Below are positions 24,686-55,496 of a DNA stretch of 64,000 nucleotides, in pieces; within the stretch, counting starts at the first letter, position 1; every line of letters starts with the position of its first letter. The stretch spans positions 216,304 to 280,303 of the forward strand of contig JACRGD010000005.1 in assembly GCA_016212525.1 (NCBI GenBank), read 5' to 3'. Below the pieces are notes generated by a model. It worked only from the letters and a program-made list of their open reading frames with translations, did no database searches and was not told the origin of the DNA. Origin of the DNA: Microcaldota archaeon. Lineage in GTDB: Archaea; Micrarchaeota; Micrarchaeia; Anstonellales; Bilamarchaeaceae. A program made the translations under genes and the position numbers.

Positions 24686-25894
24686 TTATTGCCTTGTTTT
24701 GTATCTTAGTAGTGCACCTATGCCTCCAAAACCTGTTAAAAACTGATTTCCTTCAACGGTGTTTGTCGATATCATTTCTATTGGTATTTCTGCCTGGTGT
24801 GCCAAATTTGACAAATCATCGAGCAAAAGTTCCTCACTGGTTATTTTGCTCGTTCCATTGCAGTTTTTGCACGTTATGCTTCCCTCAGGTTTCTCTCTAG
24901 AAACTTTTTCATCGGTCGTTCCGCATTGTGTGCAGGTATATTTGCCTACTTTGTGTGTAAGTCCTTCAGAAATAAGTATTTTTTCGGCCTGTCGTGTAAG
25001 TATTGCATTTCTGACTTCTTTGTCTCCGTATGTAGCAAGTCCATCACTTACGACCTCTTTTATGAATCGATCTACTAATATCTTCTCTTTTACTGCCTCT
25101 TGTTGTAGTAATATTCCTTCACTTTTAGCAAGGACCTCTCTAACTCCATAATCATCAGTATATCCTGTGTCTACTACTCCCATGATTTTGATTTGGTAGT
25201 TGAATGGAGACATTTTTATGAAAAATTCCTTTGTAGGTCCTGGTCCTCCAACTACGACTCCTTTCACTCGATTCAGAAGTCCTTCGTCCATTGCTTCTCC
25301 GACTTTTTTGTAGTAGTACTCTATCTCTTCTTCTATTATTCTTTGATATCTTCTCTGACTTTGTCCTCCCTTATTTATCTTTGCATGAGCCTGGGACTGT
25401 AATTTCTTAACTACGCTGATATTTGTTCCTCGCACTATTGCGATCGTTGCTTCTCTACCATCCAAGACTACTATGCCATAACTATCCGTTACTTCAGATA
25501 GTCCTTGAAGGGGTTCTAAGAAAAATTTGCTATCGCATCTATATGCTCCTATATTCAATTTTTCCGGCGGTTCAAGTGAAAACAATTCGATGTCTGTTTT
25601 TGCTGGGTTGTCCGATACGTTTCCACAAAAAACAGCCAATCCATTTTCCGGTGTTTTTTTGAATAATTTCAGGTGATTAATTATGCGATCTAATGCTCCT
25701 ATTACATTTGTTCTTGTGCTTTTTGATTTAATATTGCTGGCCTGGCTCATTTCCTCTCTTAATCTATTTCCCATTTCATGTACTGGTGAACCTGCAGGGA
25801 TGTAAACGGTTACTAATTCAGTACCGCTTCCTCGAAGCGCTTCTAATTTTCGTAACTCCTTTTTTAGTAAATACATTTTTTCTGAATCTGCCAT
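24686..25894 (-). CDS. prf1: Peptide chain release factor aRF1
   Basis: Recognises all three stop codons and triggers peptide release. Stop-codon recognition motif NIKSKSTR (residues 54-61), YRCDSKF, and the catalytic GGQ loop in KINKGGQSQRRY. The C-terminal domain carries a C-x2-C...C-x2-C zinc-type mini-domain (CTQCGTTDEK, then CKNC), as in archaeal forms. 402 aa, normal. A GGTG site lies 8 nt before the ATG. It works with ABCE1, encoded at 1.3-3.0 kb. Confidence 0.95.
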   Translation of the reverse strand: MADSEKMYLLKKELRKLEALRGSGTELVTVYIPAGSPVHEMGNRLREEMSQASNIKSKSTRTNVIGALDRIINHLKLFKKTPENGLAVFCGNVSDNPAKTDIELFSLEPPEKLNIGAYRCDSKFFLEPLQGLSEVTDSYGIVVLDGREATIAIVRGTNISVVKKLQSQAHAKINKGGQSQRRYQRIIEEEIEYYYKKVGEAMDEGLLNRVKGVVVGGPGPTKEFFIKMSPFNYQIKIMGVVDTGYTDDYGVREVLAKSEGILLQQEAVKEKILVDRFIKEVVSDGLATYGDKEVRNAILTRQAEKILISEGLTHKVGKYTCTQCGTTDEKVSREKPEGSITCKNCNGTSKITSEELLLDDLSNLAHQAEIPIEMISTNTVEGNQFLTGFGGIGALLRYKTRQ

Positions 25895-26368
25895 TTTTAT
25901 TACACCGATTTAATTCTTTATCTGATTCTCTATTCCTTTTTATTCAATATCTTGTTCGTCGATCTCTTAATCTGTTGTTAATATTTAATTTCCGTCCATG
26001 TTTTGATTCTTCTATCTGCTTTATTTATTATAGTCGTCGAATGCTTTTTAATAACGTGTTTCTGCCCATTCTTTCTTTTCGTATTCCTTTTTCTTTTGAT
26101 TATTTTTGTTTGTTCTATTGATCTATTTCTCAGAGCAGATTTTTCATTTTTTAATTGGTTTTTCTTGCTGTTTTTTATGACGTAAAATTCTTTCTTTTGA
26201 GTAATTGTTTTTGTTTTTTTCAACTGTTTCCTTTTTAAATTTTCGTATTCAATTATCCTCTAATATTGGTATCTCCTCTAAAATTATGTTTCTTTTTAGA
26301 GGCTATTAAAGATAAAATCGTCAAAAGTTAGTAAAAAATTTATCTACCAAAATTTGGAAGGTAAGAAG
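25895..26368. promoter_or_regulatory. 474-bp divergent intergenic region with leader hairpin
   Basis: Very T-rich on the plus strand. The left end holds the aRF1 promoter. The right end serves the hydrogenase-like operon: a TTTTTAAAT box near 26232-26240, then a perfect 9-bp hairpin (CCTCTAAAA 26275-26283 with TTTTAGAGG 26294-26302, 10-nt loop) and a second ATTAAAG box near 26305. If the first box is used, the hairpin lies in a leader of about 110 nt. A minus-strand frame of 81 codons here is K/N-rich low-complexity sequence and is not called. Confidence 0.45.
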
Positions 26369-28348
26369 ATGATTGATCTATCCATTCAAACTGTTCCGGT
26401 TCTTTTGTTTGTGTTGGGATTTTTCTCCCTGGGCGCATTGTTTTCACTAATTTTAGGCCGCAATGGTTCTTTGGTGCGCTTGCTGGGTCTGGGTTTTTGT
26501 ATTTTGGGTTCTTTGGCTGGAATTGTTGCGGGGGTTCTTCCTCTGCTTGGTCAAGCATCTAATCCGCTTACTATCGCTGTTCTTCCCTTTGTGGGTTCGC
26601 TATCCTTTCACCTAGATTCTCTCTCAGGTCTCTTTGTTGCAATGATCTCTTTGGTGAGTACGGCTGTTTGTATTTACTCTTTTTCTTATATTTTAGAATA
26701 TGAATCAAAGGGTTACTCTCTAGGTCGACTTCTGTTCCTCATCAACATCTTCGTTTTGTCTATGATTTTGGTTGTTACTGCTCAAAACGGTCTTCTCTTT
26801 ATGGTATTTTGGGAAATAATGGCAATGAGTTCCTTCTTTCTTGTTATCTATGAACAAAAAAGTGAAGCTGTCAAATCCGCCGGTCTTCTCTACCTTATCA
26901 TAGCTCATGTTGGTGCAGCGTTTTTGATTATGATGTTTTTGGCGTTTGCCGGAGCTTCGGGAAGTTTTGACTTCTCATCGTTTTCGCACGGAAACTTTAC
27001 TCCTTTATTGGCCAATGTGATCTTTGTTTTTGCTCTTTTGGGCTTCGGTTCTAAGGCAGGTATAATTCCTCTGCATGTTTGGCTACCTCAAGCACATCCC
27101 CAGGCACCAAGTAATATCTCTGCCTTGATGTCTGGTGTAATGTTGAAGGTTGCCATATATGGGTTAATTCGTGTTTTGTTTGATTTTTTGGGTGGCTTTG
27201 GGATCCCAACTTCGTGGGGTGTATTGGTTCTAGTTCTCGGTATGATGTCTTCTCTTTTGGGCGTTCTTTATGCTCTAGGTCAACGTGATATAAAACGACT
27301 TCTTGCAATGAGCAGTATTGAGAATATTGGTATTATTTTCCTGTCTTTGGGTGCTGCGCTTTTGTTACATTCGATTGGTCAAAATGCACTCGCGTCCGTT
27401 GCTTTATTTGCAGCTCTTTTCCATTCTCTAAACCATGCCTTCTTCAAGAGCTTGCTTTTCATGGGTGCCGGTGCGGTTGCTCATGTTACTCATACTCGTG
27501 ATATGGAAAAATTGGGCGGACTAGTAAAACTAATGCCTCTAACCGCAGTCTTATTCTTTATCGGTGCCCTTTCGATTTCTGCAGTTCCTCCCTTTAACGG
27601 ATTTGCAAGCGAATGGGTTACCTTCCAGGTGCTTATTACCGCAGCTCTTGGTTCGGGTCCTCTGACTCTTCTATTTGGTTTAAGTGCAGTTGCTCTTGCG
27701 ATTACGGGCGCTCTTGCTTTGGCTGTTTTTGTAGAATCCTTTGGAATTGTGTTCTTGGGTATGCCCAGAACTCATAGTGCATCTGAGGCCAAAGAAGTTC
27801 CAAGTACGATGCTTCTTGGTATGGGTCTGATGGCAGTGTTCTGTATTTTGGCCGGTGTGTTTCCCATCTATACTTCAACGTTTATTTCTGCTGCTGTTTC
27901 TTCTACTGTCCTTAGTGACACTCATCTGATTCCAGCAAATTTATCTACTCTGCCAAATTTTGAAATCCTTATTTTACTGGCTTTGTTTGCTGGCTTGGCT
28001 CTTTTGGTTTACTTCATATCCAAAACGTTATTTGGGAATCCAAATGAGACCAAAATAACTTGGGATTGCGGTTTCTACCAAGTAACTCCAAGGATGCAAT
28101 ATGGAGCTATTGGTTTTTCTATGCCCGTTAGGCGTGTTTTTGCAAAACTTACTAATCCCTTCGACAAATCTTCTGTTGGATTGAGTTTTGATGTTTTTGA
28201 TGATCTGATTTATCAGCCTATTAATCGAGTCTTCCTTCACGTTTCGTCTCTTACTCGGCTCGTACATACTGGCCAGCTTTCTACCTATCTGTTCTACCTT
28301 GTATTTACTCTGCTAGGTATTCTGATCTATGCAGTTTTCTTAATGTGA
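26369..28348 (+). CDS. hyfB: Antiporter-like membrane subunit HyfB-like (NuoL/M family)
   Basis: Proton/ion-pumping membrane subunit of group 4 hydrogenase-like complexes. 659 aa, about 15 or more membrane segments. Pumping residues are in place: the glutamate in VFWEIMAMSS and lysines in GFGSKAGIIPLHVWLPQAHPQAP and in GVMLKVAIYG. The C-terminal WDCGFYQVTPRMQYGAIGF motif is typical of HycC/HyfB rather than NuoL. The start at 26369 has GGAAGGT 6 nt upstream; a TTG at 26354 is a false start. First gene of the operon hyfB, hyfCE, hyfF, hyfG, hyfI. Confidence 0.88.
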   Translation: MIDLSIQTVPVLLFVLGFFSLGALFSLILGRNGSLVRLLGLGFCILGSLAGIVAGVLPLLGQASNPLTIAVLPFVGSLSFHLDSLSGLFVAMISLVSTAVCIYSFSYILEYESKGYSLGRLLFLINIFVLSMILVVTAQNGLLFMVFWEIMAMSSFFLVIYEQKSEAVKSAGLLYLIIAHVGAAFLIMMFLAFAGASGSFDFSSFSHGNFTPLLANVIFVFALLGFGSKAGIIPLHVWLPQAHPQAPSNISALMSGVMLKVAIYGLIRVLFDFLGGFGIPTSWGVLVLVLGMMSSLLGVLYALGQRDIKRLLAMSSIENIGIIFLSLGAALLLHSIGQNALASVALFAALFHSLNHAFFKSLLFMGAGAVAHVTHTRDMEKLGGLVKLMPLTAVLFFIGALSISAVPPFNGFASEWVTFQVLITAALGSGPLTLLFGLSAVALAITGALALAVFVESFGIVFLGMPRTHSASEAKEVPSTMLLGMGLMAVFCILAGVFPIYTSTFISAAVSSTVLSDTHLIPANLSTLPNFEILILLALFAGLALLVYFISKTLFGNPNETKITWDCGFYQVTPRMQYGAIGFSMPVRRVFAKLTNPFDKSSVGLSFDVFDDLIYQPINRVFLHVSSLTRLVHTGQLSTYLFYLVFTLLGILIYAVFLM

Positions 28349-28357
28349 GTGATTCTT

Positions 28358-30007
28358 ATGGTTGTCTCTCTTAACACAATTTTAGTTGCTATTGGGCAAT
28401 TGTTGTTTTTTTTCGGTCTTTCTCCTCTATTGGTAGGAATAATCCGAAAAGTAAAAGCCCGTTTTCAGGCTCGTCAGGGTGCATCTATCTTCCAACCCTA
28501 CTTTGACCTAATAAAATTCTTAATGAAGGGTTCAGTTAAGAGCAATGTCGCTTCTTGGATTTTTGATCTTTCGCCAATTTTGAATTTTGCGTGTGTTGCT
28601 GTGGCTGCAATTTTACTCCCCATCTTTAGTGGTGAAACACTGCTTCCTTCGAACCTTATCGTATTCATTTATCTGTTTGCAATAGGGCGCTTCCTTATGA
28701 CTTTGAGTGGTCTTGATGCCGGAAGTGCCTTTGGAGGGCTTGGTTCAAGTCGTGAGATGCTTTTGGCGGGAATAATAGAGCCTGCTATGATTATTCTTTG
28801 TTTGTTTTTAGCTGTCTCTCCTATTTCTGGCCTTGATGTTCATGCCATTTTCTTGACTACTACTTCCAATTGGCCTCTTTCCCTACTATCTCCCCAATCT
28901 GGTCTTGCTGCGCTGGCCCTTTTCATAATTATCCTTGCAGAAATGAAAAGAATTCCATTTGATAATCCAGCAACTCATCTTGAATTGACTATGGTTCATG
29001 AAGCTATGATTTTGGAAAATTCGGGTCCTAATTTGGCCCTTATGGAGTGGAGTAATTGGACAAAAATGTTCCTCTTCTTTGCTCTGTTTACTGGTCTTTT
29101 CCTTCCTCTCTCTTCTTACTGGTCTTCCTACACTTCTGTAGCTTTGGTTCTTTTATCCTCCATGGTTCTCTCTATTCTAGTTGCATCTATAGAAAGCATG
29201 GTTGTGAAGGTGCGACTTTTCCGGGTACCTGAACTTTTGACATTTGCACTCATTTGTGCACTCCTGGCTTTTCTTTCATCAAAATACCCTTCTTCCGGGG
29301 GCTCTAAGAGTATTGAAATTTTACTTTCAATAGTTATGTTACTATCATCTGTGGTATTTCTCTTAAGTGCGAATCTTATGCGCAGATTAAAGTTATTTTT
29401 CATTGGTAGTCTTTCTTTGTGTCTGATCCTCTCACTTGTTGCTCTTTCAGAGGGGTCCTTTGACACTTATTTCCGACTTGGTTCGGCAGTTCTTCTTAAG
29501 CTCGTAGTGGCGCCTATTTTGCTCCTTATGATATTCAAAAGCATATCAGAAAAATCAAAGTCAGCTCAATTTAATGTTTCTAAAAAAATCTCTCATAGTT
29601 TTTCAAAAACGTTCCATTTAGATCCTATTTCACTTGCTCCGGCGTCGAGTTTTGGGCCGATGGTATTGGCAGGTTTATTAATTTTATTGTCCTTTGTGAT
29701 CTCTAATATATTTGGACTTTCAAATATTTTATTCCCAATTTCTCTTTCAATAATCTTTATTGGTCTTTTGATTCTTACGGTAAAGACTCATTTGTTATTA
29801 CAGCTGTTTGGTCTTCTTATTCTCGAAAATGGCATCGTCCTTCTTTCCCTAGCTGTGCCTTCTGAAATACCTTTTGTTGGTGAAGCTACTGCTTTGATGG
29901 ATGGTGTTATTCTTGTTTCAGTTGCAGTTGCACTGATTCTTAAGACCAAAGAAACCTCGGGAACTCTGGACTCTAGAGAATTGAGTGAATTATCTGAAAA
30001 AAGGTGA
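28358..30007 (+). CDS. Fused HyfC (NuoH-like) and HyfE (NuoK-like) membrane subunit
   Basis: 549 aa. Residues 1 to about 310 are HyfC-like: an RQGASIFQPYFDLIKFL motif, GLGSSREMLLAGIIEPA and EMKRIPFDNPATHLELTMVHEAM, the loop that in complex I contacts the soluble arm. Residues about 320-549 are HyfE-like with a LLILENGIVLLSLA segment containing the conserved membrane glutamate. The two are separate genes in E. coli hyf. The membrane junction lies around residues 310-330 with no stop or frameshift visible. Start at 28358 with GTGAT overlapping the hyfB stop. Confidence 0.82.
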   Translation: MVVSLNTILVAIGQLLFFFGLSPLLVGIIRKVKARFQARQGASIFQPYFDLIKFLMKGSVKSNVASWIFDLSPILNFACVAVAAILLPIFSGETLLPSNLIVFIYLFAIGRFLMTLSGLDAGSAFGGLGSSREMLLAGIIEPAMIILCLFLAVSPISGLDVHAIFLTTTSNWPLSLLSPQSGLAALALFIIILAEMKRIPFDNPATHLELTMVHEAMILENSGPNLALMEWSNWTKMFLFFALFTGLFLPLSSYWSSYTSVALVLLSSMVLSILVASIESMVVKVRLFRVPELLTFALICALLAFLSSKYPSSGGSKSIEILLSIVMLLSSVVFLLSANLMRRLKLFFIGSLSLCLILSLVALSEGSFDTYFRLGSAVLLKLVVAPILLLMIFKSISEKSKSAQFNVSKKISHSFSKTFHLDPISLAPASSFGPMVLAGLLILLSFVISNIFGLSNILFPISLSIIFIGLLILTVKTHLLLQLFGLLILENGIVLLSLAVPSEIPFVGEATALMDGVILVSVAVALILKTKETSGTLDSRELSELSEKR

Positions 30008-30012
30008 ATTAC

Positions 30013-31476
30013 ATGCTTGAACTAATCATATTTGCTCCTCTGATATTTGGTCTATTGGCGTATCTGCTATCTTCACGTCCACGTATGGCAGAATATCTGG
30101 CGCTTTTAGGTTCTTTATTGTCTTTAGGTTTTGCTCTTCTTTCTGTTTATTCATATATCCCCTTTGTAACAACTGTTACTGATTTCTATGGCCTACTACA
30201 CTTTGATGCAATGTCTGCATTTTTCACTCTTATAACTGCTCTTGTTTCTCCACTTGTTTTCTTCTATTCCATAGGATATATGCGGGTGGAAGTTGCACAC
30301 AAGGAAGTTGACGAGCGGACTCTTGGAAAATATTATGCCCTCTTAAGTCTCTTTTTGTCTGCTATGTTTGCGGCTACTTTGGCTTCAAATTTTCTTGTGA
30401 TCTGGGGTGCTATTGAGGCAACTACTCTGGCATCGGCATTTTTGATTAGCTTTTATAATACTCCAGAATCCGTTGAAGCTTCCTGGAAATTCTTTGTTAT
30501 TAATTCGGTCGGAATAACTGTTGCCTTTATTGGAATTTTACTGCTGGGTATGGGACTATCGCATGGTGGTGTCATCAGTTTAGATTTAGATTCGTTGATT
30601 AGTTCGGCAACTATCGTAGATCCTCTGATTCTTAAGGTGGCGATTGTTTTCATCTTTATTGGTTTTGGAACAAAAGTTGGTTTTGTTCCCTTACATGCGT
30701 GGTTGCCAGATGCCCACAGTCAGGCTCCAACTCCAGTTAGTGCTCTTCTTTCGGGTGTTCTTCTAAATGTTGCACTATATGCCATTATCCGTACTTATCA
30801 GATAGTTCTTCCAAACTCCGAACTTGCAAGTTTCGTATCCTCTCTTTTCCTATTTTTTGGTACTCTCTCTCTTGGTTTTGCAGCAATGCGTCTCTATCAT
30901 CAAAAGAACCTCAAACGTCTCCTTGCATATTCAAGTATTGAGAATATGGGAGTTGTCGCACTTGCATTGGGCTTTGGGGGTTCGATTGGATTCTTCGCTG
31001 CGTTTTTCCACCTATTATCTCATTCCCTTGCAAAACCACTCGCTTTCCTTGTTGGGGGTATTGTAACTACTGCATATCATACAAAAGACATCGACAAAAT
31101 CAAGGGTGCAGGCGATTCGATTCCCCTGTTTGGTACCTTGCTTATGCTTGTTCTCCTCGGAGTTGCCGGTAACATTCCGTTTGGTACTTTCTTTTCCGAA
31201 ATAGCACTCATAGCAGCTGGTTTCTCTTCGGGTAATTATCTTTTGGTTTTACTTGTAGTTGTCTTTATCATTGCTGCCTTTGGTAGTATGCTTCTTAAGA
31301 GTCTTGAAATGATTATTGGTCCAAAGGTTGAAAGCGCGGCTTCGTTTAAGCCTGATCTTACTATGGCAATGGCAACTGTGATTTTGATGTTGTTGGTTTT
31401 GGTTGCTGCATTTGCACCCCCAGCTCAACTTCTTTCTATTATTCAATTATCTATCAAGGCACTTGGAGGTATGTGA
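30013..31476 (+). CDS. hyfF: Antiporter-like membrane subunit HyfF-like (NuoM/N family)
   Basis: 487 aa, about 14 membrane segments. The second pump module of the complex: glutamate in VIWGAIEATTLASAFLI, lysine in GFGTKVGFVPLHAWLPDAHSQAP, and SGVLLNVALYAIIRTY with asparagine where HyfB has a lysine. The IEATTL form marks it as HyfF rather than NuoM. Start at 30013 with GGTGA 5 nt upstream overlapping the previous stop. Stop is one base before the hyfG start. Confidence 0.88.
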   Translation: MLELIIFAPLIFGLLAYLLSSRPRMAEYLALLGSLLSLGFALLSVYSYIPFVTTVTDFYGLLHFDAMSAFFTLITALVSPLVFFYSIGYMRVEVAHKEVDERTLGKYYALLSLFLSAMFAATLASNFLVIWGAIEATTLASAFLISFYNTPESVEASWKFFVINSVGITVAFIGILLLGMGLSHGGVISLDLDSLISSATIVDPLILKVAIVFIFIGFGTKVGFVPLHAWLPDAHSQAPTPVSALLSGVLLNVALYAIIRTYQIVLPNSELASFVSSLFLFFGTLSLGFAAMRLYHQKNLKRLLAYSSIENMGVVALALGFGGSIGFFAAFFHLLSHSLAKPLAFLVGGIVTTAYHTKDIDKIKGAGDSIPLFGTLLMLVLLGVAGNIPFGTFFSEIALIAAGFSSGNYLLVLLVVVFIIAAFGSMLLKSLEMIIGPKVESAASFKPDLTMAMATVILMLLVLVAAFAPPAQLLSIIQLSIKALGGM

Positions 31477-31477
31477 A

Positions 31478-33034
31478 ATGGATGCTAACATTATGCAATT
31501 TGAAAAAAAATTGAGGTCTAGTTCGACTTACAAAAAGTTTGATGTTTCTGATGATGGTTCAGTTCTGCGCTTGGAAGTTTCTCCTTCGGATATGATTTCC
31601 TTATCTAAGGATTGTGTTTCTGCCGGTGCCCTTTATGATTCGGCATTTATTTCTTTGGGAAAAAATTCATCCTTCACTACTTATTATGTATTTAGAGTTC
31701 CTGAATTGCCCCGTATTTTGGTTTTAGTTGCAAATGGCAAAGAATTCCATTCCATCACTTCCGCTGTTCCTGCTGCTATTTTAGATGAACGGAAAATGCA
31801 GGATCTTACTGGTCTTAAGCTCCAAGGAATTCCTGATTCTCGGGCATTGATATTCCATCCAGAAGCTGGACTTCCAAAATCCCGACCACTAAATCCGGGT
31901 TGCGGTTTTGAATCAATGCAGAAAGACTATCCCATGGTTGGAACTGGTGCTGAGGGCGAATTTGAAATTCCGGTTGGTCCTGTTCATGCCGGTATTATAG
32001 AACCTGGCCACTTCCGTTTCCAGGTCGTTGGCGAACCAATCTTAAAATTGGAAGCCCGTCTTTTCTTTCTCCACAGGGGTTTGGAAAACATCGCAGAAGG
32101 AAAATCCTATTCCGAGGCTGTACCTCTGGTAGAGCAGATTGCAGGTGATGAAACCATTGCAAATACTGTTGCATATGTCCAGGCAGTCGAATCATTTCAG
32201 GGAATGAAAGTTCCAACTCGTGCTAAATATATTCGTACTATTCTTATGGAATTAGAGCGCATCTACAGTCATTTGGCCGATCTTGGAGGCATGCCTACTG
32301 ATGTCGGTTTTTATTTGGCCGCCTCACGGTTTGCAATTTTGAGAGAATCTATGATGCGTCTAAATATGGATCTCACCGGGAGCCGTTTCCTTCGGGGTAT
32401 TTGCACTGTCGGTGGACTTATTCGGGATTTAGATGATCAAAAGATTCAGGAAGTTTCTTCCAAGCTTCATTCATTCCTATCTAATCTGGATGCCATTGAG
32501 GTAGCGACTCTCTCATCATCTACTTTTATTGATCGGGCATATTCTACCGGGACCGTTCCAAATGCTCTTGCAACTGAACTTGCCCTAGTTGGCCCTGCTG
32601 CTCGCGCTGCGGGTGTCTCGTGCGATGTTCGAATTCAATTCCCTTATGCTGCATATGATGAAGTTCATGTTATGGAAGCTATCGAGCGCGATGGAGATGT
32701 TCTTTCGCGGTTTTTAGTTAAAATCAACGAAGTCAAGGTTTCGGCTGCAATTGTCTTGGAATTAATCGAGAAACTAAAACCCGGTCCGATCATGACCACC
32801 GAATCTGCTCCTAAGTCTGACTTTTTGGGCTTTGGATGGTCCGAAGCTCCAAGGGGTTCGTGTATGTTCATGGTCGAGGGAACTTCTAACGGTCGAATAA
32901 AGCGCCTCGCGGTTCGTACTGCGTCGTTCAAGAATTGGCGTGCTGCAGAAAAGGCTGTTCTGGGTAACATCGTTCCTGATTTCCCGCTTGTAAATAAAAG
33001 TTTCAACCTTGCCTATGCAGGTAATGATCTCTAA
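31478..33034 (+). CDS. hyfG: Hydrogenase large-subunit-like protein lacking NiFe cysteines (HyfG-like)
   Basis: 518 aa: a NuoC-like N-terminal domain (about residues 1-140) fused to a NuoD/large-subunit-like domain. The latter has GPVHAGIIEPGHFRFQVVGE and HRGLE, as in HyfG/HycE. The first NiFe motif (R-x-C-G-x-C in active enzymes) reads QIAGDETIA, and the second (D-P-C-x-x-C at the C-terminus) reads SFNLAYAGNDL. No cysteine occupies any of the four ligand positions, and no maturation tail follows. It is therefore not a NiFe hydrogenase; it resembles Ehr-type relatives or complex I NuoCD. GGAGGT lies 7 nt upstream of the start. Confidence 0.85.
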   Translation: MDANIMQFEKKLRSSSTYKKFDVSDDGSVLRLEVSPSDMISLSKDCVSAGALYDSAFISLGKNSSFTTYYVFRVPELPRILVLVANGKEFHSITSAVPAAILDERKMQDLTGLKLQGIPDSRALIFHPEAGLPKSRPLNPGCGFESMQKDYPMVGTGAEGEFEIPVGPVHAGIIEPGHFRFQVVGEPILKLEARLFFLHRGLENIAEGKSYSEAVPLVEQIAGDETIANTVAYVQAVESFQGMKVPTRAKYIRTILMELERIYSHLADLGGMPTDVGFYLAASRFAILRESMMRLNMDLTGSRFLRGICTVGGLIRDLDDQKIQEVSSKLHSFLSNLDAIEVATLSSSTFIDRAYSTGTVPNALATELALVGPAARAAGVSCDVRIQFPYAAYDEVHVMEAIERDGDVLSRFLVKINEVKVSAAIVLELIEKLKPGPIMTTESAPKSDFLGFGWSEAPRGSCMFMVEGTSNGRIKRLAVRTASFKNWRAAEKAVLGNIVPDFPLVNKSFNLAYAGNDL

Positions 33035-33047
33035 AGAGGTGTAATCT

Positions 33048-33584
33048 ATGTTTGGTATCTCATCTTTTTTCGGCAAACACTGCGATCTTATAACTGAGGA
33101 TTCTTCGGACCCGCAGATAAAGGAGTTAGCTCGCTTACTTAAGGCCCGCTCTTCATCCCCATTTGCTCGTTCTATTCATGTGCGAATGGTTGATGCTGGC
33201 TCATCTAATGATGTGGAGCTGGAAGAAGGTCTTACTGGAAGTCCGCAGGTCGATGCAGAGCGATTCGGGATTCACTTTGTGGCATCTCCCCGTCATGCCG
33301 ATGTTTTGATCGTAAGTGGACCTGTAACTGTCAATGCAAAACTCTCTGTAAAAAAGACTTATGAGGCAATGGCACATCCAAAAGCAGTTGTTGCTGCTGG
33401 CGATGGTGCGTGTACTGGTGGTCTGTTTTCTGGTGGCTATGCAATTGCAGGTACTGGTGCAGTTAGTGAGGTTATTCCCGTCGATGTTTGCGTTCCTGGT
33501 AATCCTCCTTCTCCATATGCAATTATAATTGGTATTTTGAAGGCTGGCGAAGCCATCCAACAAAAATCGAAAACCTCTCGTTAA
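33048..33584 (+). CDS. hyfI: NuoB/HyfI-like small subunit with degenerate iron-sulfur site
   Basis: 178 aa. The fold markers ERFGIHFVASPRHADVLIVSGPVT, AMAHPKAVVAAGDGAC and IPVDVCVPGNPPSPYAI place it in the NuoB/HycG family, which holds the 4Fe-4S cluster next to the active or quinone site. The ligands are gone: GSCNGC is replaced by GSSNDV; the third cysteine position aligns with glycine in GDGACTGG (a cysteine sits two residues later); PGCPP is PGNPP. Last gene of the operon; no NuoI/HyfH ferredoxin gene follows. Confidence 0.83.
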   Translation: MFGISSFFGKHCDLITEDSSDPQIKELARLLKARSSSPFARSIHVRMVDAGSSNDVELEEGLTGSPQVDAERFGIHFVASPRHADVLIVSGPVTVNAKLSVKKTYEAMAHPKAVVAAGDGACTGGLFSGGYAIAGTGAVSEVIPVDVCVPGNPPSPYAIIIGILKAGEAIQQKSKTSR

Positions 33585-33636: not shown

Positions 33637-34122
33637 CTATATTTTGGTTTCCTTTACTTCCCTGGCCATCTTATCTGCGTAATTTTTTAGTTTCGTTGCT
33701 ACTTCTGGGTATTTTATCGATAGGATTCTGGCTGCAAGAATTCCTGCATTTTTGGCGTTTCCTATTCCTACTGTCGCTACTGGAATCCCACCTGGCATCT
33801 GTACTATTGAAAGTAATGAGTCCATTCCGTGAAGTGCCTTTGATTCGATGGGGACTCCTATTACTGGCAATGTTGTAATTGCTGCCGCAACTCCTGGAAG
33901 ATGTGCTGCTCCGCCCGCCCCACAAATCAAAACCTCAAACCCGCGTCCTTTTGCGGCCTTTACATATTCAAAAAGAAGATCTGGTGCGCGATGGGCCGAA
34001 ATAACTCTCATTTCACAAGCTACTCCGAATTCTTCTAAGCTTTTCTGGGCTTCTTTCATGGTTTCCAGGTCGCTTTTGCTTCCCATTATTATTCCAACTA
34101 GGGGTTTTTTTGATTCGGACAT
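33637..34122 (-). CDS. purE: N5-CAIR mutase, purine biosynthesis
   Basis: Converts N5-carboxyaminoimidazole ribonucleotide to CAIR in de novo purine synthesis. The signature [31 protein letters not shown] and the [12 protein letters not shown] segment are all present. 161 aa, class I PurE length. It ends just after the hydrogenase-like operon, convergent with it. No purK is seen in the window, so whether it is the class I (PurK-dependent) or the class II form is not settled by context. Confidence 0.94.
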
Positions 34123-34184: not shown

Positions 34185-35336
34185 CTATCCGAGAATTCTT
34201 ACTACTGGATCGTAAGCGATCATTTCGTCTATGCCAAGATATTCATTAGAAACTCGCATTTCCCGTCCATCAAATCCAATTAATGAAATAGTGCTTCCTT
34301 CTTGAGTTAGTTCTCTGATTTCATCTATTCCCACTAATGCCTTCGCAGTTGCTCTTGCATTAACTAATGTTAGCTCCGTATCTAGACAGACCATGTGCCT
34401 GCTTTCTTTTACTCCACCTACATGTCTTCCTGCATATACTATTGATCCTGCATCATCAGAAGATAGTTCTACTCCTTGTTCAGTGTGTGCTACCGTTACG
34501 CTAAATCCCTGATTTGGAAACAGTCTGAACAAATATCTTGGTCCATCTGGGGTTAGTGGTGCCAATCGTGCATCTACGCAACAGACTCCCCCTAATTCCA
34601 AGTGCGGGTGATATGGGTCAAGTATTTTTCTCAATTTAAATGGATCATAAGCAAAAATTGCATGTGCATAATGTCTGTCTAATGGCATTTGCTCGTCTCT
34701 TGCCATTCTGATGACTTTTGCCAGTTGTCTATTTAATTCTCTTAATTTTATGTGTTCTTTAATTGATCTATACTCTTTTGGCCTATTCATGGCAACTGTA
34801 TTGATACCATTTCCGCATACTGCTGCGATAACTACTATGTGTTTTCTATCAATTATTTCTCGCAATTCAGGATCGTCCAATATTTTTTGCGCTTGGTACT
34901 GTGCATTTATCATTTCTGCCTCAGGAGATTCACGTCCACATACTTCTGGAGTTATCCTTTCCACTAGCTTATTGACTATTTTAGGTTCTCCTGGTATCGT
35001 TCCCCCATTTTCTACTGCTATCTTTTTTGCTGCTACGGCTCCACATTTAAAAAGTCCTCCGTGGCCCATTATTAAGAATGGGCTAGTGGGGACCAATTGC
35101 TCAAGTATTCGTTTTATCTCTCTTCTGTTTCCGTTTGTAAGATCTGCTGCTTGACCTGCTATTCTAATGAATGATCCGCCGCTTAAAATTGAGGGTCTAT
35201 CCCTCGCTGCAAATCCATCTGTTCTACTTGCAAACCCATCTACTAATACTCCGAGTGATTCAAAAGTTGAAATTCTACTTTGACAACGAATCCTTTCTCT
35301 TACTTCAGGGATATTTACTTTTCTTAGGTTTGACAT
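34185..35336 (-). CDS. Beta-carbonic-anhydrase-like protein, apparently duplicated and rearranged
   Basis: 383 aa, not a standard family member. Residues about 28-185 read like a beta-carbonic anhydrase: FIRIAGQAADLTN (compare R-N-A-G-N), LIMGHGGLFKCGAVAA (zinc His and Cys, with a longer spacing than the usual H-x-x-C), and AQYQAQKILDDPELREII. The first zinc motif C-x-D-x-R is replaced here by GFASR. A second half from about residue 245 begins with CCVDARLAP, a good C-x-D-x-R match, followed by LFRLFPNQG. Whether the two halves build one zinc site is inference. The ATG follows GAGGGG with a 6-nt gap. Function unknown. Confidence 0.55.
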   Translation of the reverse strand: MSNLRKVNIPEVRERIRCQSRISTFESLGVLVDGFASRTDGFAARDRPSILSGGSFIRIAGQAADLTNGNRREIKRILEQLVPTSPFLIMGHGGLFKCGAVAAKKIAVENGGTIPGEPKIVNKLVERITPEVCGRESPEAEMINAQYQAQKILDDPELREIIDRKHIVVIAAVCGNGINTVAMNRPKEYRSIKEHIKLRELNRQLAKVIRMARDEQMPLDRHYAHAIFAYDPFKLRKILDPYHPHLELGGVCCVDARLAPLTPDGPRYLFRLFPNQGFSVTVAHTEQGVELSSDDAGSIVYAGRHVGGVKESRHMVCLDTELTLVNARATAKALVGIDEIRELTQEGSTISLIGFDGREMRVSNEYLGIDEMIAYDPVVRILG

Positions 35337-36615: not shown

Positions 36616-38358
36616 ATGTGTGGCATCATTGGTTATGTTGGTCATAGATCTGCTTCAAAAATCCTCACCGATGGTCTTAAGTGTCTCGAATATCGGGGCT
36701 ATGACTCGGTAGGTATCGCCGTTTTAAATGGTCAAAATCTTGAAATTCGAAAAGATAAGGGTATGGTTGCCGATGTTTCTTCCGGTTCCAGATTCGATTC
36801 GCTTTCCGGTTCGATCGGTATTGGTCATTCTCGCTGGGCCACTCATGGTGGTGTTTCCAAAGAAAACTCCCACCCTCACTCAGATTGTACTGGCTCGATA
36901 GCCATTATTCACAATGGTGTTATTGAAAACTATCAGGAGCTCAAATCAAGCCTGCTGTCAAAAGGCCACAAATTCGCCTCACAAACCGATTCCGAAGTGG
37001 TTTCCCACTTATTCGAGGAAAATCTCAAACAATTCCCAACTCCGCTTATCGCCTTTTCCAAAACAATCTCTGCTCTTGAGGGGTCTTATGCCATCGTCCT
37101 TCTCTCCAAATCCTCCCCAGATGTCCTGTTTCTGGCCCGAAAAAACAGCCCGCTTGTAGTTGGTAAGGGTGCAGGCGAAAACTTCTGTGCCTCTGATTTT
37201 TCTGCTTTACTCACCTACACCCGGGAATTCCTGGTACTTGAAGATTCTCAGATCGCCACTATAGATCGAGATTCAATAGCCCTCTACGACCTTCTTCTGA
37301 CCCCAAAGACTCCCTCCTTCTTAACTATTGATTGGGATGTACAGACCGCAGAGCGCTCCGGTCATCCTCATTTTATGATAAAAGAGATTCTCGAGCAACC
37401 TGATGTAGTAAGCGCGGCATTTTCTGCAGATGTTTCCCAAGTGCTGCCTCTTTTGGAAAAATTTGAAAAAATCCACATAATCGCTTCCGGAACATCGTAT
37501 CACGCAGGTCTGCTCTTCTCTATTCTTCTAAATAAGTACAAGTCAGGCAAATTCGCTAATGTTTTTATCGCAAGTGAATATCAGAATCAGGTCTTACCCG
37601 ATTCAAATGCCCTGATTTTTGCCATAAGTCAGAGTGGAGAAACTGCAGATGTTCTTCAGGCCCTTCGTTATTCGACTTCACCACACAAGGTTTGTATCAC
37701 CAACACTCAAGGTTCATCCATAACTCGACTTTGTTCTCATTCCATTTATCTTAATGCAGGTCCCGAATCTTCTGTCGCTGCAACAAAGACCTTCCTTGCA
37801 CAGCTCTGTGTCATATACAAACTGCTCTTTGGTGATCGATATCGGGATTCTATTAGATCCACCATTCTCGCTTCGACTAAACACTCAGCTAAGATTCAGG
37901 AATTCTCCAAATCTATAATCACAAACAGGTTCATTTTCTTCCTCTCCCGCGGTCTCTGTTTGCCTCTGGGTTTTGAGGGCTCGCTTAAACTAAAGGAAAT
38001 CAGCTACCTCCACTCCCAGGCATATCCTGCCGGCGAGTTAAAGCACGGGACTTTGAGCTTAATCGAAAAAGGTGTTTGTGCTCTGTTCCTAGCACCAAAA
38101 ACTCCTGATGCGACTAAGTTATTTGGTAATCTCAAAGAAGTCAAGGCTCGAGGTGGAACTATTTTTACTCTTACGGATGATCCTTCTTTCAAATCCGAAT
38201 CAGATATGTCGCTTGATATTGTTCCACAGACAGATCCTCTTCTATATCCCTTCTCGTTCGTTGTCCCTTTACAGTTGCTTGCATACTACTCGAGCGTTTC
38301 ATTGGGTATAAATCCAGATCGGCCTAGAAATCTGGCAAAATCAGTTACTGTGGAGTAA
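36616..38358 (+). CDS. glmS: Glutamine-fructose-6-phosphate aminotransferase (isomerizing)
   Basis: Makes glucosamine-6-phosphate, the first step to UDP-GlcNAc for surface glycans. The N-terminal glutaminase begins MCGIIGYVGH with catalytic Cys2; GHSRWATHG follows. Two SIS sugar-binding domains follow with ASGTSYHAG, ISQSGETADVLQALR and the C-terminal ELKHG and NPDRPRNLAKSVTVE. 580 aa, slightly shorter than the bacterial enzyme (about 610). TTTATAAAT ends 22 nt before the ATG, so a very short leader or leaderless mRNA. Confidence 0.95.
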   Translation: MCGIIGYVGHRSASKILTDGLKCLEYRGYDSVGIAVLNGQNLEIRKDKGMVADVSSGSRFDSLSGSIGIGHSRWATHGGVSKENSHPHSDCTGSIAIIHNGVIENYQELKSSLLSKGHKFASQTDSEVVSHLFEENLKQFPTPLIAFSKTISALEGSYAIVLLSKSSPDVLFLARKNSPLVVGKGAGENFCASDFSALLTYTREFLVLEDSQIATIDRDSIALYDLLLTPKTPSFLTIDWDVQTAERSGHPHFMIKEILEQPDVVSAAFSADVSQVLPLLEKFEKIHIIASGTSYHAGLLFSILLNKYKSGKFANVFIASEYQNQVLPDSNALIFAISQSGETADVLQALRYSTSPHKVCITNTQGSSITRLCSHSIYLNAGPESSVAATKTFLAQLCVIYKLLFGDRYRDSIRSTILASTKHSAKIQEFSKSIITNRFIFFLSRGLCLPLGFEGSLKLKEISYLHSQAYPAGELKHGTLSLIEKGVCALFLAPKTPDATKLFGNLKEVKARGGTIFTLTDDPSFKSESDMSLDIVPQTDPLLYPFSFVVPLQLLAYYSSVSLGINPDRPRNLAKSVTVE

Positions 38359-53152: not shown

Positions 53153-53685
53153 TGAAATCTGATACTGAACGAAAACATTTCTATAGCGAAAAGCTTCATA
53201 AGCGAAAGGATCGTCTTAATGTTCATCTTTCGAAAGATCTACGATCGAAACTCAAGACGAAAAAGCGTGCGCTTCTGGTTCACAAGAACGACCGGGTCAA
53301 GATCCTGCGTGGTCCTGAAACCGGCAAAGAAGTCAAAGTTGTAAGAGTGAATATTAATGCCCGAAAAGTTTATCTCGAAGGAGTGGTTGTAAAGAACTCC
53401 AAAGGAAAAGAAGTTTTGATTCCTATCGAACCTTCGAACTTGCTCCTAGTTGGTCTTGAATCTACTCCCGAGCGAAAGGAAATTTTCAGGGAAGATGCCT
53501 TTATTGTTGCAAAAAAGGAAGTTAAGAAAGAAGACGACAAAAAGGATGAGAAAAAGACAGTTGTTTCAGAGCCAAAAACTTCTGAAAAAACGCAGCCTGT
53601 CTCTCAGAAGTCAGCTCATCAGGATACCACGGCTCAGGAAGCCAGAGCTCATGCTGCCCAAGATAAGCAGCACAAGAACTACTAA
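53152..53685 (+). CDS. rpl24: Ribosomal protein L24
   Basis: Early 23S rRNA assembly protein (eukaryotic L26 type). The KOW motif appears as VHKNDRVKILRGPETGKEVKVVRVN, followed by VYLEGVVVKNSKGKEV. 177 aa; the last 60 residues are a Lys/Glu/Ser-rich tail beyond the normal domain (about 120 aa), probably disordered. Starts on the last base of the L14 stop. Confidence 0.93.
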   Translation: MKSDTERKHFYSEKLHKRKDRLNVHLSKDLRSKLKTKKRALLVHKNDRVKILRGPETGKEVKVVRVNINARKVYLEGVVVKNSKGKEVLIPIEPSNLLLVGLESTPERKEIFREDAFIVAKKEVKKEDDKKDEKKTVVSEPKTSEKTQPVSQKSAHQDTTAQEARAHAAQDKQHKNY

Positions 53686-53697
53686 AGGTGAATATTT

Positions 53698-54420
53698 ATG
53701 GCAAAACTAGGTGGAACTAAACACGTAAAAAGATTGGCAACTCCAAAGGCAGTTCCGATCACAGATAAGAAAGAAAGTACTTGGATACTTAGGACTTTCC
53801 CAGGACCGCACCCAAAGCGGGCTTCTATTGGTCTTGGTGTCTTGCTTCGAGATGTACTCAAGGTAGCTCCTACTCTTAAGGAAGTAAAACAGATTTTAAA
53901 TCGACAATCTCCTAGATTGGTTCGGGTGGATCATCGTCCAAGAACTGACGTCCGATTCCCTGTTGGTCTTATGGACGTAGTTCGATTTGATACTGCCGAT
54001 AAATTCTATCGAATTATAGTCGATTCAAAAGGTCGGCTTATTCCAGTTGAAATAAAGAAGGCAGAAGCCGATTCCAAGCTCCTTAAGGTGGTTGGAAAAA
54101 ACGTTCTTAAGGGCGGAAAGATCTCTCTGGCTCTTCATGATGGCCGAAATCTCTTTGCAGACAACCACATAAATGTGGGTGATAGCATCGTGTTTTCTCT
54201 TAATGATGGTAAACTCAAATCCACCATCAAACTCGCTCCTGGTGCAAAATGCCTCATTAGCGAAGGTAAGCATGCTGGTGCAGTTGTTACTCTTAAGGAA
54301 ATTGTCAACCGACAGGCCGGTAAGCCATCTGAAGCCTTGGTTTCAAACGAATCGGGCGACTTCATTACTGTTGCAAAATACTTGTTTGCAGTAGATGGTT
54401 CGTTCAAGACAAGTGGGTGA
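53698..54420 (+). CDS. rps4e: Ribosomal protein S4e
   Basis: Archaeal/eukaryotic-only small-subunit protein. 240 aa: S4-like N-terminus (HVKRLATPKAVPITDKKESTW), LGVLLRDVLKVAPTLKEVKQIL, VDHRPRTDVRFPVGLMDVV, and a KOW-type C-terminal half with APGAKCLISEGKHAGAVVTLKEI. AGGTGA lies 7 nt upstream. Confidence 0.95.
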   Translation: MAKLGGTKHVKRLATPKAVPITDKKESTWILRTFPGPHPKRASIGLGVLLRDVLKVAPTLKEVKQILNRQSPRLVRVDHRPRTDVRFPVGLMDVVRFDTADKFYRIIVDSKGRLIPVEIKKAEADSKLLKVVGKNVLKGGKISLALHDGRNLFADNHINVGDSIVFSLNDGKLKSTIKLAPGAKCLISEGKHAGAVVTLKEIVNRQAGKPSEALVSNESGDFITVAKYLFAVDGSFKTSG

Positions 54421-54425
54421 AAAGA

Positions 54426-54941
54426 ATGACTGATAATCCAATGAGAAAAATATTGATTGACAAGGTAACTGTCAACATCGGTGTCGGATCTCCAGGCGAC
54501 CGGCTTGAAAATGCAAAAACGCTTCTCTCTAAATTGAGTGGTGCCGGGACTCCTGTCGAGACCAAGGCCCGCAAGAGAGATCCTGTTTTCAAACTCAGAA
54601 AGGGTCTTCCAATTGGTGCAAAGATCACTCTTCGTGGTGCTCCTGCGAAAACCTTTTTGGAAAAGGCTCTCGCTGCAAAAAGACGAACTCTCAAAGAATC
54701 CAATTTCGATAGACGAGGGAACTTTGCTTTCGGTGTTCATGAATATATCGATTTCCCGGGTGCTAAATACGACCCGACGATCGGTATGTTTGGTTTTGAC
54801 ATTTGCGTTACTCTTCGACGACCCGGAAATTCCGTGGCTCTGCGGAGATTATCTCCCTCAAAAATAGGGGCAAAACATTTGATTACTCCCCACGAGGCGA
54901 GAGAATTTATAAAAAATTCCTTTAACGTAAAATTTGAGTGA
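54426..54941 (+). CDS. rpl5: Ribosomal protein L5
   Basis: 5S rRNA-binding protein. 171 aa. [23 protein letters not shown], the [23 protein letters not shown] block and the C-terminal [24 protein letters not shown] are typical of the archaeal L11e/L5 form. Start at 54426 with GGGTGA 5 nt upstream, overlapping the S4e stop; a GTG at 54417 is part of that site. Confidence 0.95.
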
Positions 54942-54946
54942 TTTTT

Positions 54947-55108
54947 ATGAAGCTAACTACTGAAGAGCGATATAAAGGAAAAGGCAAGCGAGTCTGCAGA
55001 AACTGCGGAAATTCGAGAGCCTTGATTAGAAAGTATCGTCTGTTTGTATGCAGAAGATGCTTTAGGGAAATGGCCGAGATGATCGGCTTTAGAAAATACG
55101 GAGGATGA
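54947..55108 (+). CDS. rps14: Ribosomal protein S14 (zinc-binding)
   Basis: 53-aa protein, too short for many gene callers. Two C-x-x-C knuckles: CRNCG (residues 17-21) and CRRC (35-38), then [15 protein letters not shown] at the end, the standard zinc-type S14/S29. GTGAT lies 5 nt upstream, overlapping the L5 stop. Its 3' end GGAGGATGA contains the ribosome binding site for S8. Confidence 0.95.
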
Positions 55109-55112
55109 AATT

Positions 55113-55496
55113 ATGTCTGATCATTTGGCAGATGCACTGAACATTCTTAAGACTCATGAACTGGCTGGTCTTTCGACCTGCAATCTCAAAGCGAGTAAGG
55201 TCGTCGGAGAGATCTTGCGAGTACTTGCTGAAAACAAGTATCTTAAGTCCTATGAGATGGTTGAAGATGGACGAGGCGGATACTACCAGGTCGTCTTAGA
55301 TGGAAGAATTAACGATTGTGGTGTTATAAAACCTAGAGCTCCAGTTAAACGAGCACACTGGGCTAAAAAGGAGCAGCAATACATTCCTGGTTTTGGTGTC
55401 GGTCTTTTGATCGTAACCACCCCCAACGGAATCATGACAAATTCGGAAGCTGATAAACAGCATGTTGGCGGTAGGCTTTTGGCCTATGTTTATTAG
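55113..55496 (+). CDS. rps8: Ribosomal protein S8
   Basis: 16S rRNA-binding protein. 127 aa; HLADALNILKTHELAGLSTC, the middle VLDGRINDCGVIKPRAP and the end IPGFGVGLLIVTTPNGIMTN with GGRLLAYVY. GGAGG in the end of S14 lies about 8 nt before the ATG. Confidence 0.95.
   Translation: MSDHLADALNILKTHELAGLSTCNLKASKVVGEILRVLAENKYLKSYEMVEDGRGGYYQVVLDGRINDCGVIKPRAPVKRAHWAKKEQQYIPGFGVGLLIVTTPNGIMTNSEADKQHVGGRLLAYVY

Follow-up and report, generated by a model that had tools for sequence, protein, structure and literature searches.

The window analysed here, a stretch of 64,000 nucleotides from a Micrarchaeota genome, holds a five-gene Ehr-type operon, hyfB-hyfC/E-hyfF-hyfG-hyfI (26354-33584, + strand), whose genes share one strand, overlap or almost abut, and end with hyfI. 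No HyfA/HyfH/NuoI ferredoxin-type gene was found among the open reading frames in or beside the operon, no flavin subunit in or near it, and none of the Mrp-only small subunits within it. The features of the locus, with the evidence for each, are as follows.

24686-25894, - strand: aRF1, archaeal release factor and left synteny anchor (PF03463-5); the same neighbour occurs in G010, G015, G001, G062, G047 and others.
26354-28348, + strand: hyfB-like antiporter-like subunit (NuoL/HyfB), 664 aa (PF00361 1.4e-52; HyfB NF005086 1.5e-189).
28349-30007, + strand: hyfC (NuoH-like) fused to a hyfE/NuoK-like domain, 552 aa (PF00146 5e-35; PF00420 7e-7; 7z0s_D 3.9e-37).
30004-31476, + strand: hyfF-like antiporter-like subunit, 490 aa (PF00361 7.4e-50; HyfF 3.8e-105).
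31478-33034, + strand: hyfG-like large subunit (NuoC-NuoD fusion), 518 aa counted from the ATG at 31478 in a reading frame open from 31403 (PF00346 8.9e-40; PF00329 2e-6; PF00374 2.7e-8).
32141-32164, + strand: former N-terminal NiFe CxxC..H site, AGDETIAN, with A/S, E and N replacing the ligands (HycE/MbhL alignment, 14 orthologues).
32993-33016, + strand: former C-terminal NiFe CxxC site, NKSFNLAY (alignments including 14 orthologues).
33048-33584, + strand: hyfI/nuoB-like small subunit without the cluster cysteines, 178 aa (exact ORF bounds; Pfam, NuoB family, solved relatives, alignments).
33192-33224, + strand: former CxxC loop, DAGSSNDVELE (C1 to S53, C2 to V56), DxGS[SP]NDVExE in 14/14 orthologues.
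33393-33425, + strand: former third-ligand loop, AAGDGACTGGL (C3 to G120), GDGA[CV] in 14/14 orthologues.
33495-33509, + strand: former fourth-ligand loop, PGNPP (C4 to N152), G[NS]PP in 14/14 orthologues.
33637-34122, - strand: purE, AIR carboxylase class (PF00731 4.5e-66), which adjoins a canonical beta-CA gene in G010 and G015.
34185-35336, - strand: beta-CA-like family B protein (GHGGxxxCGAV ... CVDAR), 383 aa, the sole family B copy in the genome (profile match, alignments).
36616-38358, + strand: glmS-like gene, right synteny anchor (PF01380 4.7e-35), in an order shared with G010 and G015.

Profile matches identify the 178-aa product of 33048-33584 as a true NuoB/HyfI homologue. It matches PF01058 at E=1.4e-21 in the Pfam search and the NuoB family at E=1.9e-29 in the family profile search that a first-pass annotation of this DNA had called for, and its closest solved relatives are MbhJ (6cfw_J, 2.8e-25) and formate hydrogenlyase subunit 7 (7z0s_G). 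That annotation had claimed that all four cluster cysteines are replaced (in GSSNDV, by glycine in GDGACTGG and in PGNPP), with a cysteine two residues from the third site. Both claims are borne out when the protein is aligned, without any gap, to the small subunits of bacterial Ehr (GSCNGCELE / GDCA / PGCPP): S53, V56, G120 and N152 occupy the ligand positions, and the non-aligned Cys122 lies two residues past the third. Simple displacement of the third cysteine by an indel is ruled out, since the alignment is gapless and residue 122 is valine in G116 and G146. With Cys122 kept in 12/14 orthologues, the HyfI family thus has no universal cysteine.

The first-pass annotation had also named a case that would count against it, in which orthologues retain the cysteines and this copy alone decays. 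The opposite was found. HyfI orthologues are present in 14 of the 301 Micrarchaeota genomes searched, across several families (two more, G068 and G069, have contigs that stop within the operon), and a cysteine occurs at none of the four ligand positions in any of the 14, which places the loss beyond chance or sequencing error. The three loops are nearly invariant, the first site being S or P and the fourth N or S, and HyfI is the best conserved of the five subunits, with a mean pairwise identity of 63% against 51-54% for the others. Six pairs were compared for dN/dS, of which four had saturated dS; the two unsaturated pairs gave 0.066 and 0.19, and the cysteine-free pattern is therefore shared under purifying selection, as had been proposed for checking. 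Decay or assembly error is ruled out by the 14 genomes, the conservation and the purifying selection. In the gene tree the Micrarchaeota HyfI proteins form one clade (support 100/100) on a long stem, and the tree is at odds with taxonomy, placing G047 apart from the same-genus G063/G064.

The large subunit had likewise been thought to lack its NiFe site, and the alignments agree: the four former cysteine positions of HyfG are A/S222, E225, N506 and Y513, all invariant except for the A/S alternation. Because the ligands of both HyfG and HyfI are lost and a ferredoxin-type gene is missing, no recognisable Fe-S or NiFe site is left in the encoded complex. The proposal that a machine resembling complex I is put to a redox-free use thereby gains sequence support, from the conserved cysteine-free loops, the NiFe loss and the missing ferredoxin-type gene. 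That the predicted complex lacks redox cofactors is well supported; that it would lack any cofactor whatever, we infer from its sequence.

Whether any known Ehr shares this double loss had been left as a question, which can be answered in part. Eight plasmid-borne bacterial Ehr operons (from Rhizobium, Azospirillum, Cupriavidus, Paraburkholderia, Ciceribacter, Methylocalor and Rhodococcus) share the NiFe-site replacements of HyfG but keep all four small-subunit cysteines. Against this comparison set, made up of plasmid-borne bacterial Ehr only, the double loss of NiFe site and small-subunit cluster appears confined to the Micrarchaeota clade. In the open-access literature we found no description of a cysteine-free Ehr/NuoB (an earlier mention in Marreiros et al. 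2013 is possible), of a Micrarchaeota Ehr, or of a carbonic anhydrase tied to Ehr or Micrarchaeota.

Several operon-free genomes of the same genus (L006, L008; G001, G005, G006, G011, G012) encode a group 4 hydrogenase of the Mbh-like kind; its cysteines are intact, as read in two of the five. No genome found in the order has both the Ehr operon and an Mbh-like hydrogenase. The small subunit of one of these hydrogenases (L008 1-1857; G005:C7, about 53438-55294) bears an apparent intein-like insertion that ends ...VVAN|CNGC, immediately ahead of the first cluster cysteine.

The membrane arm of the Micrarchaeota operon has kept its charged ion-path residues, with almost no exception across orthologues of HyfB, HyfF and HyfC. 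HyfB retains E154 in TM5, K234 in TM7, K265 in TM8, H357/H361/K365 and E420, all kept in orthologues save for K265, which is N in one. HyfF retains E138, K224, H231, H340, K344 and E399, with N255 at the TM8 lysine position, and the acidic loop of HyfC (E198/D205/E212/E218/E233) is kept in 14/14 orthologues.

Beyond the operon itself, the locus holds a link to carbonic anhydrase (CA), new here and absent from the first-pass annotation, which suggests the machine's likely role. A beta-CA-like gene flanks the operon in 11/11 assessable genomes of the order, G078 standing outside the count because its contig breaks inside hyfB. Among operon carriers in and outside the order, such neighbours lie within about 3 kb of the operon and are of several types, namely family A, family B and a Pro_CA protein (the L014 protein matches Pro_CA at 7e-8, the protein beside the G116 operon at 6e-5); G004 has an extra Pro_CA-type gene. 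Outside the order, a CA-like neighbour occurs in G116 and a putative one in G146, with none seen in G229 and G276. The G146 neighbour is counted as putative because its hhalign comparison with canonical CA was not significant (prob 0.5), leaving it CA-like by motif. In G276, a secretion-type ATPase gene adjoining the operon carries an apparent large intein-like insertion (L013 10626-14486; 1287 aa).

A Pfam search of families A and B returned no significant match, and the two were instead compared with known proteins by fold and by profile. The AlphaFold model of family A (pLDDT 83) has a single PDB match below E=0.001, the Porphyridium tandem beta-CA 1ddz (E 8e-5, prob 1.00, with a modest TM-score of 0.41). 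Its active-site C, D, R, H and C are invariant in 15 sequences, and at the profile level it matches canonical CA weakly (prob 28); by predicted fold, family A is a tandem beta-CA. For family B the predicted model is poor (pLDDT 48), and its CxDxR half, one half only, matches the canonical beta-CA profile (prob 93.5, E 2.3e-7). Family B proteins (L105 5013-6203, L103 4284-5465, window 34185-35336) resemble a tandem beta-CA with split ligands, the H...C pair (GHGGxxxCGAV) in the first half and CxDxR in the second.

Within the order, families A/B occur in 12/12 genomes that bear the operon and in 11/72 of the others (Fisher 1e-8, shared ancestry ignored). Since they also adjoin canonical CA where the operon is missing, they are not partners dedicated to it, and since most of the CA-like genes run on the strand opposite to the operon, in convergent or divergent orientation, they share no transcript with it. 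Clusters of divergent CA-like genes around a canonical one are common in Micrarchaeota (G015:C69, G032:C25, G017:C46, G073:C34, others).

In its order, the operon replaces the canonical soluble beta-CA, and does so at the locus where operon-free relatives have that gene. A canonical beta-CA (PF00484, E<1e-20) occurs in 0/12 operon-bearing and 53/72 operon-free genomes of the order (Fisher p=1.2e-6, uncorrected for relatedness), and the exclusion recurs, again with shared ancestry ignored, within family f1 (p=0.003) and family f5 (p=7e-5). Phylum-wide it is weak (1/14 operon-bearing vs 97/287 others at E<=1e-10), since beta-CA is missing from most genomes of two large families; G276 retains one elsewhere in its genome (1.1e-23). 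Where the window reads aRF1-[hyf operon]-purE-CA_B-HTH-glmS, the same-genus G010 reads aRF1-purE-[canonical CA]-CA_B-HTH-glmS, and G015 and G001 are arranged in a related way. Within family f5, the contrast is between aRF1-CA_A-[hyf operon] and aRF1-[canonical CA]-CA_A. The conflict between gene tree and taxonomy (G047 vs G063/G064) suggests more than one such replacement.

The reading we favour, with a probability of roughly 0.55, is that a redox-free, ion-gradient-coupled machine of the complex I family may have taken over the carbonic-anhydrase role, working by analogy like DAB but on a whole Ehr. We infer the CO2/bicarbonate role from genome context, and with it a putative physical partnership with the CA-like protein, the substrate, the direction and the ion. 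More tentatively, and at somewhat under even odds, we propose in full that a complete complex I-type machine, performing no redox chemistry, might use an ion gradient to hydrate CO2 vectorially, or to accumulate bicarbonate, by way of a beta-CA-like protein coupled to it, and might repeatedly have displaced the housekeeping CA in Micrarchaeota.

We envisage a model where the NiFe site was lost first, a loss common to bacterial Ehr, and the last Fe-S cluster later, at the base of the Micrarchaeota clade, so that the complex would no longer be an electron carrier. The two former cofactor sites at the HyfG-HyfI interface would have been kept as conserved non-cysteine polar loops, probably as a ligand pocket or a structural or conformational switch. 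H+ or Na+ running down its gradient through the HyfB/HyfF/HyfC arm would cause a conformational change, and this change would power the accumulation of bicarbonate or the hydration of CO2 in one direction. The flanking CA-like protein would probably be the catalytic partner, much as DabA is to DabB. The ion gradient would serve as energy source; an A/V-type ATPase is present in every operon carrier tested.

Other explanations deserve weighing. The complex could be a redox-free, Mrp-like ion antiporter (H+/Na+ or K+) serving pH homeostasis, with HyfG/HyfI as a regulatory cap and a link to bicarbonate through pH buffering. The intact Lys, Glu and His residues of the antiporter-like subunits fit this, as do their solved homologues, which include Mrp and Mbh antiporter subunits. 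However, an antiporter does not predict that the operon should replace canonical beta-CA at the same locus, the operon lacks the small subunits peculiar to Mrp, and conservation is highest in the peripheral small subunit, beyond what a mere cap would need; we regard this account as unlikely, if one to take seriously.

Import of HCO3- together with an ion by the complex would make a cytosolic CA dispensable, and the CA-like proteins would then act apart. Such a transporter would account for the loss of canonical CA and for neighbours on the opposite strand, and it has a precedent in the DAC homologue MpsAB, proposed as a Na+/HCO3- symporter (PMC13144422, introduction). Against it, Pfam and family profile searches of the operon proteins recognised no anion-transport module, and the conserved catalytic C, D, R, H and C of family A suggest that CO2 hydration persists there. 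We consider it decidedly unlikely.

It is improbable that electron transfer, to a quinone for instance, continues in the complex by way of another metal or an organic cofactor bound in the altered loops. These loops do conserve potential ligands (D55, D119, N152 or S, and C122 in 12/14), and HyfG retains a Q-site-like His170, yet C122 is not universal, a NuoI, flavin or ferredoxin subunit is absent in or near the operon, and no NuoD-like gene besides this hyfG turned up in those genomes of the order that bear the operon.

We give just as little credence to hitchhiking, whereby the Ehr was inserted beside a CA cluster and the association is inherited synteny without functional meaning. The locus is indeed ancestral, as the aRF1, purE and glmS neighbours are shared with operon-free relatives. 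But the CA-like neighbours belong to different families, on either side and in several arrangements, loss of canonical CA goes along with the operon, and the mismatch of gene tree and taxonomy implies that placement by CA genes apparently happened more than once. Finally, a decaying or non-functional Ehr, to which the loss of every cofactor ligand might point, is scarcely credible given intact five-gene operons in divergent genomes, selection at low dN/dS on a best-conserved subunit whose loops are cysteine-free in 14/14, and an intact ion path.

In complex I, electron transfer near NuoB/NuoD is coupled to distant ion movement by a mechanism that is debated. If the redox-free, CA-replacing machine that we favour is real, it would be a relative that has the coupling parts but no electron carriers, and it would mean that the conformational and ion-moving half can work alone and be attached to other chemistry. 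To our knowledge, the role of the Ehr family is not established; the CA link offers a concrete, testable function for one of its members. It also suggests an unrecognised inorganic-carbon route in DPANN archaea.

Among known systems, respiratory complex I (NADH, F420H2 and ferredoxin types) has a NuoI subunit and a NuoB that carries the N2 ligands, neither of which the Micrarchaeota operon encodes. Group 4 NiFe hydrogenases (Mbh, Hyc/Hyf) and Mbs/Mbx share homologous subunits (MbhJ, HycG, HycE, MbhH), whereas the Micrarchaeota complex lacks the two large-subunit CxxC motifs, the proximal [4Fe-4S] ligands and the ferredoxin-like subunit of the hydrogenases. Mrp antiporters have redox-free antiporter-like subunits in common with it but no NuoB/NuoCD/NuoH-type subunits. 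Cyanobacterial NDH-1MS (CupA/CupB) ties complex I architecture to CO2 hydration, as proposed here; it is, however, ferredoxin-driven (PMC13144422), and no Fe-S ligand is left in the Micrarchaeota complex.

The closest functional parallel may be DAB/DAC (DabA-DabB), in which a NuoL-type membrane subunit works with a tandem beta-CA-like protein, without redox cofactors and as a stand-in for CA, features that sequence and genomic linkage suggest here as well. For DAB2, the NuoL-like subunit and the beta-CA-like DabA have been proposed to carry out CO2 hydration coupled to the proton-motive force without electron transfer (PMC13144422). DabA itself (PF10070) is ruled out as partner by its absence from the order (0/84 genomes), the membrane part here is an entire Ehr, NuoH-, NuoCD- and NuoB-like subunits included, and the CA-like proteins come from other families and are not co-transcribed. 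With DabA absent and a whole Ehr in the membrane, the machine would work in a DAB-like way and yet not be a DAB.

Ehr are defined by loss of the NiFe ligands, with electron transfer still assumed (PMC6349859; PMC10432482), and the operon has this trait, since its large subunit resembles that of group 4 hydrogenases but has none of the cysteines that would ligate NiFe. With Ehr such as those of rhizobia, Geobacter, Nitrospira and AOA it shares the gene order hyfB-C-E-F-G-I, though with C and E fused, the lack of a HyfA/H subunit and the same NiFe-ligand replacement (SGDxT ... NKSFNxSYxGxDL). We place it as a variant within the broad Ehr family, the four-cysteine trait being drawn from the eight operons and not from a verified published definition. 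Against the bacterial Ehr examined, the Micrarchaeota operon alone combines the loss of all four small-subunit cysteines with a fused hyfC/E and CA-like flanks.
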